Shown here: piece by piece, positions 27,536 through 36,060 of the stretch
Layout of the letters: the number at the start of each line of letters is the position of its first letter
Numbering within the stretch: position 1 is the first letter of the stretch
Translations under genes and position numbers: made by a program
The notes under the pieces: generated by a model
The model's input: the letters and a program-made list of their open reading frames with translations, nothing else
Told to the model about the DNA's origin: nothing
The model's database searches: none
DNA from: Oscillospiraceae bacterium
GTDB taxonomy: Bacteria > Bacillota > Clostridia > Oscillospirales > Oscillospiraceae
Reading direction: 5' to 3'
Length of the DNA stretch: 61,172 nt
NCBI GenBank assembly: GCA_017439805.1
Contig: JAFSIK010000014.1
Span: 1-61,172, forward strand

Positions 27536-27567
27536 CCCCCGACGAAAGTCGGGGGTCTTTTTTATTT
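27536..27567 (+). terminator. Terminator of the pot operon
   Basis: CCCCCGAC (27536-27543), loop GAAA, GTCGGGGG (27548-27555), then TCTTTTTTATTT. The T-run overlaps the 3' end of hydF on the other strand. Confidence 0.92.
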
Positions 27568-28761
27568 GTCCAGCATTGCGGAAAGATGGGGGAAAATGTC
27601 CACGCTCCGGCGCAGTACGCCGTGGAAAAGGGCGATGGAAATGCCGTAATTTGTAAAAGGCACTCCCGCGTACCGGGCACATTTCATACGCCAGAGCACT
27701 TCCCTCTCCGGCAGCATGCAGCCGCCGCAATGAATGACCAGAGCGTATTTTGAAAGGTCTTCCGGAAAACCGGTGCCGGATGAAAATTCAAAATTCAGTT
27801 CCCTGCCCGTGTGGGCTTTAAGCCAGCCGGGCAGCTTCACCGTGCCGATGTCGTTGCATTGGCGGTGATGGGTGCATCCCTCGGAAATGAGTACTGTGTC
27901 GCCGTCTTTCAGAGTCTTTATGGCCGCCGCGCCCTCCACCGCCGCATCCAGAAAACCTTTGTACCGGGCCATCAGAATGGAAAAAGAGGTGAGAGGTATA
28001 TCCTCCGGCACGTCCTTCGAAACCGGACCGAACACCTGGCTGTCGGTGATGACCAGAGCTGGCTTTTCAGACAGGGATGCCAGAGCCTTTTTAAGCTCCG
28101 TTTCCTTTGTAACCATACAGAAAGCATCTGCGTCCAGCACGTCACGGAGGGTCTGCTGCTGGGGCAGGATAATGCGCCCCTTGGGCGCGGATTCGTCAAT
28201 GGGGGTCACCAGCACCACCATGTCCCCCGGCGCGATAAGGTCGCCCACGATGCGTTTTTCCTCACCGGGGACGGAAAGCTCCGCCAGACGGGTCTTTATC
28301 TCGTGTATCCCCTGCCCCGTTACGGCGCTGGCGTGTACGGCGCCCTCCGGTGCGTCGGGACATTTGGCAAGGTCAGATTTGTTGCAGACGATGATGGACG
28401 GTATTTCTTTTTCTCTGAAAAGGTCTAAAAGCTCCTTGTCCACGGGAGTTAACCCCCGGGTGGAATCCAGCACCAGCACGGCAATATCCGTTTTATTGAG
28501 CACCTGCCGGGTACGCTGTACCCTCTTTTCGCCAAGCTCCCCCTCATCATCAAAACCTGGGGTGTCAACTATCATCACAGGCCCCAGGGGCAGAAGCTCC
28601 ATGGCCTTGTAAACAGGGTCCGTGGTGGTGCCTTTCACGTCGGAAACCAGGGAAATTTCCTGATTTGTAACGGCGTTTACAATGCTGGACTTACCGGCAT
28701 TTCGCAGGCCGAAAAATCCGATGTGGATACGCTGGGCGGATACGGTGTCGTTAAGTCCCAC
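27562..28761 (-). CDS. hydF: [FeFe]-hydrogenase maturation GTPase HydF
   Basis: Scaffold and carrier that receives the 2Fe subcluster built by HydE and HydG and delivers it to HydA. The 399-residue protein has an N-terminal GTPase domain (G1 GLRNAGKSS at 18-26, DTPGF, NKSD), a dimerisation domain and a C-terminal cluster-binding domain with the ligand pattern ISEGCTHHRQ and HCGGCM. The start is a GTG with AAAGGAGG six bases upstream. Last gene of the TM1266-hydE-hydG-hydF unit. No hydrogenase gene is present in this window. Confidence 0.95.
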   Translation of the reverse strand: MGLNDTVSAQRIHIGFFGLRNAGKSSIVNAVTNQEISLVSDVKGTTTDPVYKAMELLPLGPVMIVDTPGFDDEGELGEKRVQRTRQVLNKTDIAVLVLDSTRGLTPVDKELLDLFREKEIPSIIVCNKSDLAKCPDAPEGAVHASAVTGQGIHEIKTRLAELSVPGEEKRIVGDLIAPGDMVVLVTPIDESAPKGRIILPQQQTLRDVLDADAFCMVTKETELKKALASLSEKPALVITDSQVFGPVSKDVPEDIPLTSFSILMARYKGFLDAAVEGAAAIKTLKDGDTVLISEGCTHHRQCNDIGTVKLPGWLKAHTGRELNFEFSSGTGFPEDLSKYALVIHCGGCMLPEREVLWRMKCARYAGVPFTNYGISIALFHGVLRRSVDIFPHLSAMLDK

Positions 28762-28776
28762 GGTCTGCCTCCTTTC

Positions 28777-30225
28777 TCAGAAGCGGAAATCACGGCGGTT
28801 TGAGTTTTTGATGTCCTCTACATTCTGTGCCGCAATGCCTCTTGCCTTGAGATTTGGCACCTTTTCAAGTTCCCTCTCAACCATCTCAAAACCGACTTTC
28901 TTTGTTTCCTCCCCGCCGTAGTCCACAAGGTACTCCGTAAGGGTCATAAGAGCGTTGGGGTGGCAGCAGTTGGCAATCTGGCCGGTCTTGCACAGGCTCA
29001 TAAACCGGTCGCCGGTGCGCCCCTCCCGGTAGCAGGCGGTGCAGAAAGAGGGTATGTGGCCGTTTTCCATCAGCCAGCGCACCACCTCGTCCAGACTGCG
29101 CTGGTCGGAAACGTCGAACTGCTCGGTATCGTGGGGACGCTCTTCCTCGGCATAGCCGCCCACGCTGGTGCGGGAGCCGCCGCTGACCTGAGACACGCCC
29201 AGACGAAGCAGTCTGCCGCGTACCTGCTCGGATTCGCGGGTGGAAATAATGATGCCGGTATAGGGTACGGCAAGGCGTATACAGGCGGTTATTTTGGCAA
29301 ATGTATCGTCGTCGATGCCGTTGTCAAACTGGTCCGGGTCAATGTCGCTGGCGCGCTTGAGCCGGGGTACGCTGATGGTATGGGGGCCTACACCGTGGAC
29401 AGCCTCCAGATGCTCGGCATGCATGATAAGGCCGGCAAATTCGTATTTATAAAGTTCCAGACCGAAAAGCACTCCCAGACCCACATCGTCAATGCCGCCC
29501 TCCATGGCTCTGTCCATGGCCTCGGTGTGGTAGGCGTAATCGTGTTTGGGGCCGGTGGGATGGAGCTTTTCGTAGCTTTCCTTGTGATAGGTTTCCTGGA
29601 AGAGAATATAGGTGCCGATGCCCGCGTCCCTGAGTTTGCGGTAATTTTCCACGGTGGTGGCGGCTATATTTACATTTACGCGACGGATGTCGCCGTTTTT
29701 GTGATGGACGCTGTAAATGGTCTTGATGCACTCAAGAATGTACTCGATGGGGTTATTGACAGGGTCCTCACCGGCCTCGATGGCCAGACGCTTGTGACCC
29801 ATATCCTGCAGGGCGATAACCTCCCGCCGCACCTCTTCCTGAGTGAGCTTTTTGCGGGGTATCTCCTTGTTTTTCAGATGGTAGGGACAGTATACACAGC
29901 CGTTTACGCAGTAGTTGGACAGATAAAGGGGCGCGAAGATAACGATGCGGTTGCCGTAAAAGGCAAGCTTTATCTCCTCTGCGATTTTGTAAATCTGCTC
30001 TATCTTTTCCGGAATGTCGCAGGCCAGAAGCAGGCTGGCTTCACGGTGGGTAAGACCGGCGCAATGCCAGCCCTTTTCCGTTTTGCGGGGGCGAGCCTTT
30101 TCAAGAATTTCGTCGATAAGCGCGACGTTATTTTTATTTTCCTCCGCCCAGGCGAGAGTCTGAAGTATCTCGCCGTCGTTTATAAATTCTTCTGCTTTCA
30201 GAGATTTGGGATTGTAGTTTGCCAT
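28777..30225 (-). CDS. hydG: [FeFe]-hydrogenase maturation radical SAM protein HydG
   Basis: Cleaves tyrosine to make the CO and CN- ligands of the H-cluster. The 482-residue protein has the radical-SAM CxxxCxxC at C106, C110, C113 (NYCVNGCVYCPYH) and the C-terminal second cluster site CTACYREGRTG plus IANCC. Long HydG-specific stretches such as GEDPVNNPIEYI and FQETYHKESYEKLHP confirm it over ThiH. AAGGA precedes the ATG. 15 bases separate it from hydF. Confidence 0.96.
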   Translation of the reverse strand: MANYNPKSLKAEEFINDGEILQTLAWAEENKNNVALIDEILEKARPRKTEKGWHCAGLTHREASLLLACDIPEKIEQIYKIAEEIKLAFYGNRIVIFAPLYLSNYCVNGCVYCPYHLKNKEIPRKKLTQEEVRREVIALQDMGHKRLAIEAGEDPVNNPIEYILECIKTIYSVHHKNGDIRRVNVNIAATTVENYRKLRDAGIGTYILFQETYHKESYEKLHPTGPKHDYAYHTEAMDRAMEGGIDDVGLGVLFGLELYKYEFAGLIMHAEHLEAVHGVGPHTISVPRLKRASDIDPDQFDNGIDDDTFAKITACIRLAVPYTGIIISTRESEQVRGRLLRLGVSQVSGGSRTSVGGYAEEERPHDTEQFDVSDQRSLDEVVRWLMENGHIPSFCTACYREGRTGDRFMSLCKTGQIANCCHPNALMTLTEYLVDYGGEETKKVGFEMVERELEKVPNLKARGIAAQNVEDIKNSNRRDFRF

Positions 30226-30264
30226 AATATTTTTCCTTTCTTACGGGTCGGAAGTTCTTCCCCG

Positions 30265-31305
30265 TCAGATATGTTTTACATTTCCGATGTGGTTTGTGAC
30301 TTCGTAGCCTATGTTTTCCATACGTTTTTTAAGGTCGGCAAGGTTTTCCGCCGCCTCGCTGCCGCTGTGGAGTTTGCCCTGATAAAGGTCATACTTTTCC
30401 CGGGCATCCTTCGGAGACAGGTTGGGCATTACAACGTTTGCTCCGGCCAGAATGCCCCGCTCCCGTCCGTCGCCGCTGACGGTACCCAGCGCCGTGGTGG
30501 CGGGCAGCAGCACCGCCGGGTGGATAAGCCTTATAATAGACAGAAGTTTGCAAGTCAGCTCAGCCGAACCCGCTGCGAAATCCTTAAAAGGGGTATGGCG
30601 GTGGGGTATAAAAGGGCCGATGCCGCACATATCGGGTCTGAAATCCGAAATAAATTCAAGGTCGGCGGCAATGTGCTCTTTGGTCTGGTAGGGCGAACCC
30701 ACCATAAATCCGCAGCCTGCCTGAAATCCCGCATCACGCAGGTCATTAAGACAGCGCAGGCGGTTTTCCAGCGTCATCTCCGCCGGGTGAAGCTTTTTAT
30801 AGTGCTCCGCCGTGGCGGTTTCGTGGCGGAGAAGATAGCGGTCTGCGCCGGCGGCCTTAAGACGTTTATAGCTTTCCCGGCTTCGCTCGCCCAGAGAAAG
30901 GGTCACGGCGCAGTCGCTCCAGCGGCGTTTAATTTCGCCGATAAGTTTTTCCAGAACCTCGTCCGTAAAATACGGGTCCTCACCGCCCAGCATGACAAAG
31001 GTGCGAAAGCCCAGCTCCCAACCCTTTTCACAGCAGGAGAGTATCTCTTCCCGGGTAAGCCGGTATCGGCTGCATTCGGCATTGCTCCTTCGTATGCCGC
31101 AGTAATAGCAGTCATTTTTGCAGATGTTGGATATTTCAATAAGTCCGCGGATATAGACGTCCCTGCCGTAAACTCTTTGACGAACCGCCTCAGCCCGCTC
31201 GCGCAGGTACCCGGCGTCCTCTCCGGAGCAGTCCATAAGGGTTATGTATTCCTCCCGGGCGATGCGGCCGTGACGCTCAAGACGGTCAATGAGAGATTTA
31301 ATCAT
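30265..31305 (-). CDS. hydE: [FeFe]-hydrogenase maturation radical SAM protein HydE
   Basis: Radical-SAM enzyme acting in assembly of the H-cluster 2Fe unit. The 346-residue protein has CxxxCxxC at C62, C66, C69 (SNICKNDCYYCGIR), LGGEDPYFTDE, and the barrel motifs SLGERSRESY, RHETAT and GFMVGSPYQT. The ATG at 31305 (MIKSLIDRLERHG) is taken because the TTG nine bases upstream has no ribosome site; the real site is a weak GAAAG. It overlaps the TM1266-type gene by 8 bases, so translation is coupled. Confidence 0.94.
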   Translation of the reverse strand: MIKSLIDRLERHGRIAREEYITLMDCSGEDAGYLRERAEAVRQRVYGRDVYIRGLIEISNICKNDCYYCGIRRSNAECSRYRLTREEILSCCEKGWELGFRTFVMLGGEDPYFTDEVLEKLIGEIKRRWSDCAVTLSLGERSRESYKRLKAAGADRYLLRHETATAEHYKKLHPAEMTLENRLRCLNDLRDAGFQAGCGFMVGSPYQTKEHIAADLEFISDFRPDMCGIGPFIPHRHTPFKDFAAGSAELTCKLLSIIRLIHPAVLLPATTALGTVSGDGRERGILAGANVVMPNLSPKDAREKYDLYQGKLHSGSEAAENLADLKKRMENIGYEVTNHIGNVKHI

Positions 31306-31561
31306 TGCTTTCAAATACGGTGTTGGAATAGGCGGTCTTTACGCCAACACCGGGAAGCTTGCCGATTTTACCCGCCAGTGCGGATATTGCGTCCTGTGGG
31401 GCGTCAATGGCGATGGATATAACGCTTATTCCCTTTTCACGGTAAGGAATGCCCATACGGCCGATTATAAATCGGGCGTACTCATGCAGCACGGCGTTGA
31501 GATGCTCTGTATCGCCGCCCTGTTCAACGATTATTCCCATAACTGCAACTCTTGTCTGCAT
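31298..31561 (-). CDS. TM1266-type putative [FeFe]-hydrogenase system regulator
   Basis: An 87-residue ACT/ferredoxin-like-fold protein of the TM1266 family, often annotated iron-only hydrogenase system regulator. It has the family pattern RVAVMGIIVEQ, then YARFIIGRMGIPYREKGISVISIAIDAPQDAISALAGKIGKLPGVGVKTAY. Its role is inferred from constant linkage to hydE/hydF/hydG; it lacks a DNA-binding domain. GGAGG precedes the ATG. First gene of the maturation unit, behind a structured leader. Confidence 0.9.
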   Translation of the reverse strand: MQTRVAVMGIIVEQGGDTEHLNAVLHEYARFIIGRMGIPYREKGISVISIAIDAPQDAISALAGKIGKLPGVGVKTAYSNTVFESND

Positions 31562-32460: not shown

Positions 32461-35043
32461 TTATTTTTTGTTTCGTATGAGCTTTATAAGCTGAATAACC
32501 AGCATACTGGCAAAGGCGGCGATAACGATGGTGAGTATCATCATACCGTTGAGAGCCGCTACGCTGAACAGACCCTTCAAACCGGGGACGAGCAGTACCA
32601 GCGCAAGAAGCACCACGCCGGCGGCAAAGGCGCCGATGAGGGAACGGTTGTTCCAGAAACGTTTGGTGAAAATCACCGGGCGGGCGGCCTTGCAGCTGAA
32701 GCCATGGAACAGACGTCCGAGGCACAGTGTGGCAAAGGCCATGGTGCTGCCCAGCTCCGCTCCGCCGTTTCTGATGCCGATGTGGAACGCCACAGCGGTG
32801 GCAATTGCGATTACAAGACCCTCGATGCCCACACTGGCAAGGAAGCTCTTCGTGAGAATTCCCTCGCTGCGGGGGCGGGGTTTTTCAAGCATTACCGCGT
32901 CGGAATGGGGCTCAACGCCCAGAGCGATGGCGGGCAGAGAGTCGGTAAGCAGGTTAATAAACAGCAGGTGCACCGCCGCGAAAGGCACGGGCAGTCCCGC
33001 AAGAGACGCGTACAGAACCATCAGAATACCGGCCATATTGCCGGAGAGCAAAAACTGAATGGCGCGCTTGATATTGGCGTATACGTTTCTGCCGTTTTTA
33101 ACAGCCTTTACTATGGTGGCGAAGTTATCGTCGGTGAGCACCATGCCGGCGGCGTCCTTGGCAACCTCTGTACCGGTAATGCCCATGGCAACGCCGATGT
33201 CCGCCTGCTTAAGGGCGGGAGCGTCGTTTACGCCGTCACCGGTCATGGAAACAAGACAACCTCTGTTCTGCCAGGCGCGAACAATACGGATTTTATGCTC
33301 GGGGGAAACACGGGCGTATACGGACACCCGGGGAACGAACTCAATAAGCTCCTCGTCGGTCATGTTTTCAATAACCGCACCCTCCACGGCCTCGGTACCC
33401 TCGGTGAGTATGCCTATCTCACGAGCGATGGCGGAGGCGGTGATCTTGTGGTCGCCGGTTATCATAATGGGACGGATACCTGCGGCGATACACTCGGCAA
33501 CGGCGGCGGCAGACTCGGGTCTGGGAGGATCCATCATAGCTATAAGGCCAAGGAAGTCAAGGCCGTTTTCATCTGCCAGACTGATGGCGGTGCTTTCAAC
33601 CTTGCGGCATGCAAAGGCCAGCACACGCAGGCCCTGATTGGAAAATTCCTCGTTGGCGGCTTCGATCTGACGGCGCTCGTCATCGGCTATGACGGATCTG
33701 TCCAGCAGCACGTCCACGGCACCCTTGGTGACCATAAGCAGGCCGCCGGATAGTTCGTGAACGGTGGACATCATCTTGCGGTCGGAGTCGAAGGGTATCT
33801 CGGTCAGGCGGGGCCAGCGGCCGCGGGTGATAAGCTCGTCAAAGCCGTGGTCTTCGCCAAGGCGAACCAGGGCGGTCTCGGTGGGGTCGCCCACCTCGCC
33901 GTTTTCGTCCACGGTGGCGTCGCTGCATAGAAGAGCCGTACGCAGCAGGGGTTCCTGAAAAGGATCGTTGAAGTCCGCGTCGGCGGCATTGATTATTTTT
34001 CCGCCCACGTAAATCTTCTTTACGGTCATCTTGTTCTGGGTAAGGGTGCCGGTCTTGTCAGAGCAGATAACGGACACGCTGCCCAGACCCTCAACCGCCT
34101 GCAGCTTGCGTATAATTGCGTTTTCCTTGGCCATTTTCTGTGTGCCGAAGGAAAGAACGATGGTAACGATGGAACTGAGTGCCTCGGGAATGGCCGCAAC
34201 CGCCAGAGCGATGGCAAACAGGAAGGCACTCATAATGTTTTCTTTGCGCACAAAAACGCTGACGCAGAAAATTATCGCGCAGATGATGAGGATAATGATG
34301 GACAGCTTTTTGCCAAACTGGTCAAGGCTGACCTGCAGGGGAGTCTTTTTCTCCTCAGTGGTTTTAAGCAGGGTGGCAATCTTGCCCATTTCGGTGTCCA
34401 TGCCGGTGGCGGTTACAACAAAAGCGGCGCGGCCGTAGGTAACGAAACTGCCGGAAAACACCATATTTTTGCGGTCTCCCAGAGGCACGTCGCCCTCAAT
34501 TTCGGTGCGGTCCTTTTCAACGGGCAGGCTCTCGCCGGTAAGGGCGCTTTCGGCGCACTTCAGACTGGCGCATTCCAGCAGCCGTCCGTCAGCGCATACA
34601 GAGTCGCCGGCCTCAAGGATAACCACATCGCCGGGTACCACTTCCCTGCCGGGAATCTGTACCACCCGTCCGTCGCGCATAACCTTTGCCGTGGGCGCGG
34701 ACATCTGTTTAAGACTGTCCAGAGAGGCGGAGGCTTTTACGGTCTGAACCGTTCCCAGAATGGCGTTCATAACCAGCACAGCCAGAATTACTATGGTGCT
34801 CTCCACATCGCCTACGATGGCGGAGACCACCGCGGCAATGATAAGGATTATAACAAGGAAATCGGCAAACTGCTCTAAAAATATTCTGGCAACGCTCTTG
34901 CGTTTACCGGAAATCAGCTCGTTCGGGCCATGTTTTTCAAGCCTGGCCTTTGCCTCGGCAGAAGTCAGCCCCTCTTCGCCGCAGTTTAAATCGCGGAAAA
35001 GTTCAACTCGCGTTTTTTGCCAAATTTGCTTCTCTTCGTTCAT
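32461..35043 (-). CDS. P-type cation-transporting ATPase, probable Mn2+/Ca2+ exporter
   Basis: An 860-residue P2A-type ATPase. It has an N-terminal cation-ATPase domain, the actuator TGES (169-172), the membrane motif IPEAL (285-289) in helix 4, the phosphorylation site DKTGTLT (329-335), the P-domain TGDGVNDAPALKQADIGVAMG, and about ten membrane helices. By sequence alone it would be called a PMCA/SERCA-like Ca2+ pump. The Mn2+-type riboswitch in its leader points to Mn2+ export, as known for the Lactococcus YoaB group; this is inference. The ATG at 35043 has AGGAAGGA upstream; the open frame begins 16 codons earlier inside the leader terminator. Confidence 0.9.
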   Translation of the reverse strand: MNEEKQIWQKTRVELFRDLNCGEEGLTSAEAKARLEKHGPNELISGKRKSVARIFLEQFADFLVIILIIAAVVSAIVGDVESTIVILAVLVMNAILGTVQTVKASASLDSLKQMSAPTAKVMRDGRVVQIPGREVVPGDVVILEAGDSVCADGRLLECASLKCAESALTGESLPVEKDRTEIEGDVPLGDRKNMVFSGSFVTYGRAAFVVTATGMDTEMGKIATLLKTTEEKKTPLQVSLDQFGKKLSIIILIICAIIFCVSVFVRKENIMSAFLFAIALAVAAIPEALSSIVTIVLSFGTQKMAKENAIIRKLQAVEGLGSVSVICSDKTGTLTQNKMTVKKIYVGGKIINAADADFNDPFQEPLLRTALLCSDATVDENGEVGDPTETALVRLGEDHGFDELITRGRWPRLTEIPFDSDRKMMSTVHELSGGLLMVTKGAVDVLLDRSVIADDERRQIEAANEEFSNQGLRVLAFACRKVESTAISLADENGLDFLGLIAMMDPPRPESAAAVAECIAAGIRPIMITGDHKITASAIAREIGILTEGTEAVEGAVIENMTDEELIEFVPRVSVYARVSPEHKIRIVRAWQNRGCLVSMTGDGVNDAPALKQADIGVAMGITGTEVAKDAAGMVLTDDNFATIVKAVKNGRNVYANIKRAIQFLLSGNMAGILMVLYASLAGLPVPFAAVHLLFINLLTDSLPAIALGVEPHSDAVMLEKPRPRSEGILTKSFLASVGIEGLVIAIATAVAFHIGIRNGGAELGSTMAFATLCLGRLFHGFSCKAARPVIFTKRFWNNRSLIGAFAAGVVLLALVLLVPGLKGLFSVAALNGMMILTIVIAAFASMLVIQLIKLIRNKK

Positions 35044-35069: not shown

Positions 35070-35208
35070 AAAAAAATAAAGACCTCTGCACCGATGCGCA
35101 TAGCTATCACGCATGATACAAAAGTCTCGCCATTTAAATCCGAAGCGGGGCCGAAACCCGTATTGACGCCGCGGATACACAATATTGTGCCAACTACTCC
35201 CTTTTTTG
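35070..35208 (-). ncRNA. Probable yybP-ykoY (Mn2+) riboswitch with terminator platform
   Basis: The minus-strand leader starts AAAAAAGGGAGTAG (35207-35194) and closes with GGCGAGACTTTTG (35131-35119), the conserved ends of the yybP-ykoY aptamer. In between are a CACAA-TA-TTGTG hairpin, CGTCAATACG and an ATCCG...CGGAT arm. AAAAG and CTTTT close helix P1. The 3' P1 strand is also part of GAGACTTTT (35128-35120), which pairs over 9 positions (with G-U pairs) with AGAGGTCTT (35087-35079), followed by TATTTTTTT. So P1 and the terminator exclude each other: ligand binding should allow read-through into the P-type ATPase. Confidence 0.75.
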
Positions 35209-35210
35209 GC

Positions 35211-35239
35211 ATAATACGCCCGCCGGGTTTAAAAGTCAA
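35211..35239 (-). promoter_or_regulatory. Promoter of the riboswitch-P-type ATPase transcript
   Basis: Minus-strand TTGACT (35234-35239), 17 bases, TATTAT (35211-35216). Transcription would begin at the first bases of the riboswitch. The rest of the 35240-35376 gap, leading to sigK on the other strand, shows no promoter I can assign; a sigma-E-type site would be expected but no clear match is seen. Confidence 0.85.
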
Positions 35240-35376
35240 GAGATTTTTGACGAAAAAAGCCTCCTCAGCGCTGAAATACTCTTTGTTTTGCTCCGCCTTG
35301 TCCGACAAAAAATTACATGTCCCCAGTAATCTGTACTTGCCGTTTTCAAATATGCTTTAGAAAAAAGGAGGTAAGT

Positions 35377-36060
35377 ATGCTGAGCGGTTCAATTTTCATG
35401 CTGCTGCACGGGATTTTTTTCATGCTGAGGGTTTCCGGCGGCGGCACATTTCCAAAACCTCTCACCGCCGATGAAGAGCGCGATTGCCTTTTACGCATGG
35501 CAAACGGCGACACACAGGCCAGAAACACCCTAATAGAGCGCAATCTGCGCCTTGTGGCGCACATAATTAAGAAGTATTATACCCAAACCAGTGACCAGGA
35601 TGACCTTATTTCCATCGGCACCATAGGGCTTATTAAAGGCATTTCCACTTTTAAACCCGATAAAAACGTGCGCCTGGCCACTTATGCGTCCAGATGCATT
35701 GAAAACGAGATACTGATGTATTTTCGCTCCTGGAAAAAACTGGCAAACGAGGTTTCCCTGTCGGACTCAATCGAAAACGACAAGGACGGCAACTCTCTGT
35801 CGCTTATGGATATAATTTGCGTTGAGGACACTCTTTTGGAGGATCTGAGTTCCCAGGACGACTGCAAAAACGTATATGCTCTGGTGCAGCATCTGGAGCC
35901 AAGGGAGCGGGAGATAATCTCCCTGCGCTACGGACTTTCCGGACGGGTACCACTGACCCAGCGCGAGGTTGCCGACCACTGCGGAATATCAAGATCGTAC
36001 GTGTCCCGTATTGAGAAAAAAGCGCTGGAAAAGCTGAGAGGAAAAATGGAAGGCAAATAA
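35377..36060 (+). CDS. sigK: RNA polymerase sporulation sigma factor SigK (pro-form)
   Basis: Late mother-cell sigma factor of sporulation. The 227-residue protein starts with a hydrophobic pro-sequence (MLSGSIFMLLHGIFFMLRV) of the kind removed from pro-sigma-K by SpoIVFB, then FPKPLTADEE, region 2 (ARNTLIERNLRLVAHIIKKY, DLISIGTIGLIKGISTF, YASRCIENEILMYFRSWKK) and region 4 with LTQREVADHCGISRSYVSRIEKKALEKL. AAAGGAGGTAAG precedes the ATG. The gene is uninterrupted: no skin-type element. Its presence argues that the host forms spores or did recently. Confidence 0.93.
   Translation: MLSGSIFMLLHGIFFMLRVSGGGTFPKPLTADEERDCLLRMANGDTQARNTLIERNLRLVAHIIKKYYTQTSDQDDLISIGTIGLIKGISTFKPDKNVRLATYASRCIENEILMYFRSWKKLANEVSLSDSIENDKDGNSLSLMDIICVEDTLLEDLSSQDDCKNVYALVQHLEPREREIISLRYGLSGRVPLTQREVADHCGISRSYVSRIEKKALEKLRGKMEGK

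Follow-up and report, generated by a model that had tools for sequence, protein, structure and literature searches.

A P4-less yybP-ykoY-type riboswitch that overlaps a terminator and most likely serves as an ON switch for Mn2+ export precedes a P2A-type ATPase gene in an Oscillospiraceae bacterium

What signal controls a P-type ATPase gene that follows a long structured leader in an Oscillospiraceae bacterium, and which ion does the encoded pump export? We analysed the 61,172-nucleotide stretch of DNA that carries this gene (the window), where positions 35245-35040 of the minus strand hold, in order, a promoter match, the leader, an AGGAAGG ribosome-binding site and the ATPase start codon, at 35043 (Table 1). 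An initial annotation had read the leader as a Mn2+-sensing yybP-ykoY riboswitch with a terminator switch, and the pump as an exporter of Mn2+ rather than Ca2+. It is highly probable, in our assessment, that a Mn2+-responsive yybP-ykoY riboswitch without helix P4 controls, by antitermination, a P2A-type ATPase that exports Mn2+ and probably Ca2+ too. The element is an ordinary one, a further member of a known riboswitch class before a known type of pump.

Table 1. Features of the ATPase locus (window positions).
Feature	Position	Strand	Details
Promoter match, sigma-70-type	35211..35239	-	TTGACT (35239-35234), spacer 17 nt, TATTAT (35216-35211)
yybP-ykoY-type Mn2+ riboswitch aptamer (predicted), three-way-junction subtype without helix P4	35120..35205	-	R1 model match and covariation in relatives
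P1.1 5' strand AAAAG	35201..35205	-	pairs with CUUUU 35124-35120
L1 5' half GGAGUA	35195..35200	-	sarcin-ricin-like loop in solved structures
P1.2 5' strand GUUG	35191..35194	-	pairs with UGGC 35132-35129; helix covaries in relatives
P2 hairpin GCACAAUAUUGUGU	35177..35190	-	R1 alignment, folding
P3.1/P3.2 arm with L3 loop	35138..35176	-	R1 alignment, folding, covariation
L3 loop UCAAUAC	35160..35166	-	third base A = 35164; aligns with the Mn2+-binding A41 of L. lactis
GAGACUUUU, L1 3' half and P1.1 3' strand	35120..35128	-	common to aptamer and terminator
Intrinsic terminator	35070..35128	-	5' arm 35128-35109, loop 35108-35100, 3' arm 35099-35079, U-tract 35079-35070
P2A-type cation ATPase, 860 aa, controlled gene	32461..35043	-	Pfam and NCBIfam; AGGAAGG ribosome-binding site just before ATG

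The promoter matches the consensus at 10 of 12 positions and predicts a transcription start near 35204, and a TTGAC/TATA-like pair is also found upstream of the leader in several orthologues. Its distance to the aptamer is about 7 nt shorter in the window than in the closest orthologues, so that transcription may begin inside P1.1. Divergent from the leader runs an uninterrupted gene for a sigma-70-family sigma factor (35317-36060, plus strand), which we take to resemble sporulation sigma K, and the minus strand at 27562-31314 holds three consecutive genes for putative [FeFe]-hydrogenase maturases, HydF, HydG and HydE, as judged by eye from their translations.

Searching the window with the whole of Rfam returned no family at its gathering score, and RF00080, which had been proposed as a check of the riboswitch assignment, gave no match even at E<=10. 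The best Rfam match in the leader was RF02617 (SSRC10; 31 bits, E=3.8e-4, window 35206-35074), below that family's 56-bit cut-off, and it was accompanied at E<=10 by a single chance match. The same pattern extended to 150 genomes of the family, where sub-threshold matches were found in 40 genomes for RF02617 (E<=10) and in 22 for RF00080 (E<=1), and neither model reached its cut-off in any of the 150. In its alignments RF00080 leaves P1.1 and P1.2 unpaired and has its final helix spanning the region of P4 and the terminator; the model probably misses the window because these two helices are unmodelled and a fourth helix, absent in this subtype, is expected. A gathering-score match to RF00080 was accordingly counted as a criterion of detection and not as a defining property of the class. 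Searching with the DNA sequence of the leader alone found similar sequences in just 3 of 60 genomes, a number too low for comparative work.

We based the class assignment on a purpose-built covariance model, R1, and on homologous sites at which both Rfam models find a match. When 26 leaders from relatives, excluding the window, were aligned with MAFFT, compensatory changes appeared in 8 of the 9 pairs of P1.1 and P1.2. When MAFFT was applied to all leaders, P1 came into register but P2 and P3 did not, so that RNAalifold recovered only 9 pairs, and R1 was therefore built from four well-aligned leaders of other genera, located before YrbG-like and Na/Pi-like genes and again excluding the window. 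R1 matched the window at 35210-35115 with 61.3 bits (E=7.6e-19), its sole match in the 61 kb, and found one further match only in the whole genome, at E=2.2. Chance is excluded as the source of the R1 match, and we judge the RF00080 result to be a false negative.

At E<=1e-3, R1 had matches in 119 of the 400 family genomes searched. Of 80 named loci that code for the nearest ATPase relatives, 52 carried the element, in every case on the coding strand upstream of the ATPase and nearly always about 70-300 nt away, with representatives in Oscillospiraceae as well as in Clostridium, Enterococcus, Vagococcus and Thermoanaerobacterium. Across the 52 leaders, both-sided changes occurred in 28 of 29 pairs and 95% of cells paired, in an alignment that was fitted to the model and leans its way; in this same model-fitted alignment the score was 0.694 versus 0.216 after shuffling, and shifting the partner strand by 1-3 columns brought pairing below 50%. 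Furthermore, R1 and SSRC10 match the same place in enterococcal and vagococcal leaders, RF00080 and SSRC10 match the same site at one locus (L040), and R1 finds every one of the seven RF00080-type loci on which it was tried, indicating that the three models describe one family. Because R1 matches sister loci with and without P4, that helix was treated as a subtype feature and not a defining one.

Three blocks of the leader are conserved: GGGAGUAG from 35201, the L3 loop at 35166-35160, and GGCGAGAC ending at 35124. The outer two are the conserved ends of the yybP-ykoY aptamer that the initial annotation had named, and both are indeed present on the minus strand; the L3 block is an addition to it. 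Folding yields P2, P3.1, a 7-nt L3 and P3.2 as the class predicts, with P1.1 and P1.2 closing the structure. In L1, GGGAGUA faces (G)(A/G)AGA and is closed by P1.1/P1.2 (35201-35191 with 35132-35120); GGGAGTA is invariant in the leader alignment and present in 97/97 leaders of a census preselected for GG[GA]AG[TC]A. The loop UCAAUAC, between P3.1 and P3.2, shows the N-C-A pattern whose third base, an adenosine, is predicted to contact Mn2+. In solved structures the Mn2+ site includes N7 of A41 in UCA41AU43UC of L. lactis and A48 in ACA48UACU of X. oryzae (PMC6754395), and the loop in the window is of the L. lactis type (UCAAUUC in L. lactis). P1.1 has just five pairs, all but one A-U, and is 97.7% paired among relatives, with compensatory changes; P1.2 comprises one G-C and three G-U pairs. 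Helix P4 and a four-way junction are not present in this aptamer, whose junction is a short unpaired stretch in the R1 alignment. Taken alone, the aptamer has an uninformative fold z-score (-0.01), as would be expected if tertiary contacts provide most of its stability.

The terminator stem comprises 19-20 pairs with one bulged C at 35093 and runs into the U-tract UUAUUUUUUU. The initial annotation was right that the 3' strand of P1 is reused and that the two folds exclude each other, and wrong in giving the stem 9 positions. Its predicted free energy is -23 to -25 kcal/mol (-24.9, with z -4.97, for 35128-35070), and z ranges from -4.4 to -5.0 relative to dinucleotide shuffles; none of 200 shuffled sequences was as stable. 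A generic terminator scan, which allows loops of up to 8 nt, passed over the 35128-35070 terminator, whose loop has 9. Since the 5' arm holds the 3' halves of L1 and P1.1, the terminator and the aptamer, including P1.1, are mutually exclusive, as in a terminating ON riboswitch, and the 5' arm coincides with the aptamer 3' strand in 47 of the 51 leaders analysed (the window counted among them). The full leader folds at -46.0 kcal/mol with the terminator versus -31.4 with P1 enforced, in a calculation outside which the tertiary Mn2+ energy lies. The weak P1.1 and the G-U pairs of P1.2 account for a ground-state prediction that so strongly favours the terminator; the 14.6 kcal/mol by which the P1-enforced leader is less stable implies that the default state is OFF, and that ON needs a P1.1 stabilised by ligand during transcription. 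The same mechanism is described for L. lactis, where the ligand stabilises P1.1 as transcription proceeds and the terminator is excluded (PMC11087558).

By analogy with known family members we infer that this RNA binds Mn2+, that binding turns the gene on, and which ion the pump exports. At low free Mn2+, positions 35128-35120 would be captured by downstream sequence into the terminator, and transcription would stop in the U-tract. When Mn2+ rises, L1 would dock on L3, with A35164 giving the N7 contact, and this docking would stabilise the weak P1.1 and withhold its 3' strand from the terminator. RNA polymerase would then reach the ATPase gene, leading to export of Mn2+ and probably of Ca2+ too.

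The ATPase itself scores best on PMR1-, SERCA- and PMCA-type Ca2+ ATPase models, yet under their curated cut-offs. Its nearest solved structure is the Listeria Ca2+ pump LMCA1 (lmo0841; 782 bits, residues 6-859), and this full-length homology, together with LMCA1-like site residues, places it among LMCA1/MgtA-type P2A ATPases. The retained residues are IPEAL in M4, an M5 without the SERCA Glu771, N-x-x-x-D in M6 and an Arg in M8, which we take to be ion-site positions of LMCA1. As far as can be judged from the protein sequence, such motifs do not separate Mn2+ from Ca2+ as cargo. Two further P-type ATPases, CD2503 of C. difficile and YoaB of L. lactis, sit behind Mn2+ riboswitches and are tied to Mn2+ tolerance (PMC11477304). 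Pneumococcal MgtA is likewise a P-type ATPase behind a Mn2+ riboswitch (PMC9936198), and is described as exporting both Mn2+ and Ca2+ under the control of a yybP-ykoY riboswitch that senses Mn and Ca (PMC11434433). With LMCA1 as the nearest structure and MgtA described as exporting both ions, the original wording, a Mn2+ exporter instead of a Ca2+ exporter, was too sharp. Elsewhere in the genome (assembly about 80% complete), no Nramp Mn2+ importer was found; one MntP-family gene lies on another contig (1271-1735), with no riboswitch-model match nearby, and this weighs neither for nor against the Mn2+ reading.

We also took a census of genes downstream of 97 family leaders, which were selected by the GG[GA]AG[TC]A motif and whose counts are not phylogenetically independent. 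Behind them lay P-type ATPases (24), MntP (20), YrbG-like (14), ArsB-like (14), sodium-pump decarboxylase beta-like (13) and Na/Pi-like (12) genes, so that the same riboswitch family precedes the Mn2+ exporter family MntP at other loci, which favours the Mn2+ reading. L3 types were counted from an L3-specific table, as CAACA also matches outside L3. By this count CAACA occupies L3 in 20/20 MntP leaders and CA-xx-AC in all 39 ArsB-, decarboxylase-beta- and Na/Pi-like leaders, and both types occur before ATPases and YrbG-like genes. Sodium-ion-translocating decarboxylase beta-like genes stand directly behind P4-less Mn2+ riboswitches at four loci (L005, L044, L151 and L249). At L249, the one such locus examined for neighbours, ABC transporter genes follow and no other decarboxylase subunit does, and its beta-like protein is a candidate for an unrecognised metal transporter. 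ArsB/DASS-like genes (L014, L015, L147) and Na/Pi-like genes (L008, L024, L142) follow the same riboswitch subtype, and roles in Mn2+ or Ca2+ homeostasis are possible for them.

The census and the pump both bear on whether the same architecture might sense mainly Ca2+, or Ca2+ together with Mn2+, and control a Ca2+ pump. We regard this as improbable. LMCA1 is the nearest solved relative, the pneumococcal mgtA riboswitch is presented as Mn/Ca-sensing (PMC11434433), a review considers it likely that some yybP variants have altered divalent-ion specificity (PMC7266159), and UCA-RUAC leaders stand before Na/Pi-like, Na+-pump-like and ArsB-like genes, with the other L3 type before MntP. Against these points, L1 and L3 agree with the Mn2+-bound structure from L. 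lactis down to the discriminating adenosine, and the ATPases of C. difficile and L. lactis under related riboswitches are linked to Mn2+ tolerance (PMC11477304). A broader form of this idea makes the whole P4-less UCA-RUAC subtype a ligand-shifted variant, for example for Ca2+ over Mn2+, and we give it a similarly small chance. On this reading Oscillospiraceae would employ the shifted variant before P-type ATPases and before families with no customary link to Mn2+ (decarboxylase beta-, Na/Pi- and ArsB-like genes), and the other L3 type for MntP. A ligand shift argued from the L3 sequence was not adopted, UCAAUAC being the L. lactis Mn2+ type.

Two other explanations dispense with a Mn2+ switch altogether. 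That the leader is a mere attenuator or a short terminated small RNA without metal sensing would fit its sole above-noise Rfam match, as SSRC10 is a discrete terminated transcript in S. pyogenes. SSRC10, however, has a putative calcium transporter gene directly downstream on its own strand, shares all aptamer blocks and looks like what the same switch would yield on termination, and a plain terminator would not need conserved tertiary loops and covariation; this explanation is very unlikely. The SSRC10 'small RNA' is probably this same element, a terminated riboswitch leader filed as an sRNA. Sister leaders before sodium-pump decarboxylase beta-like and Na/Pi-like genes also recall the Na+-I (DUF1646-type) riboswitch, which is found before oxaloacetate decarboxylase genes as well. 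Na+-I RNAs are built from a pair of extended stems, P1 and P2, carry their conserved clusters at the P1 base and in the P2 loop, and do not form this three-way junction, and Rfam matches in the leader at E<=10 were limited to SSRC10 and the chance match. The Na+-I class, to which we assign a very small probability, was rejected on architecture. We therefore return to the Mn2+-responsive yybP-ykoY riboswitch: the leader most likely switches on Mn2+ export in a gut-type bacterium. As the pneumococcal switch is described as Mn/Ca-sensing, Ca2+ is a possible second ligand and, by comparison with pneumococcal MgtA, a possible second cargo.

The class, its terminator switch and its association with the pump gene, all part of the initial annotation, are thus backed by covariance, comparative and anatomical evidence. 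For the pump, the riboswitch predicts Mn2+, perhaps with Ca2+, as substrate, where protein homology alone would say Ca2+ ATPase. For annotation more widely, a widespread form of the Mn2+ riboswitch without P4 escapes the public RF00080 model, whose cut-off is passed in 0/150 family genomes, compared with 119/400 matched by R1 (E<=1e-3).

Among described systems, the pneumococcal mgtA leader reportedly forms a three-way-junction aptamer whose read-through is activated by Mn2+ (as credited to Martin et al. 2019). By description, S. pneumoniae mgtA (caxP) likewise has a yybP-ykoY-type leader before a Mn2+/Ca2+ P-type ATPase, in a streptococcal and not an Oscillospiraceae lineage (PMC11434433, PMC9936198). 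SSRC10, which in S. pyogenes lies before a putative calcium transporter (PMC3675131), shares with the leader the blocks GGGAGUAG, CGUCAAUACGG and GCGAGAC and the terminator overlap, although Rfam files it as a small RNA gene and not as a riboswitch. The L. lactis yybP aptamer and RF00080 resemble the leader in L1 and L3 sequences and in the exclusion between P1.1 and terminator (PMC6754395, PMC11087558), whereas the L. lactis and X. oryzae structures have a four-way junction with P4 and the leader is without P4. In C. difficile CD2503 and L. lactis YoaB a Mn2+ riboswitch likewise controls a P-type ATPase (PMC11477304); those are recognised Mn2+ riboswitches, whereas this leader falls under the Rfam cut-off. 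Close equivalents of the switch in the window are thus known in Streptococcus, Lactococcus and Clostridioides.
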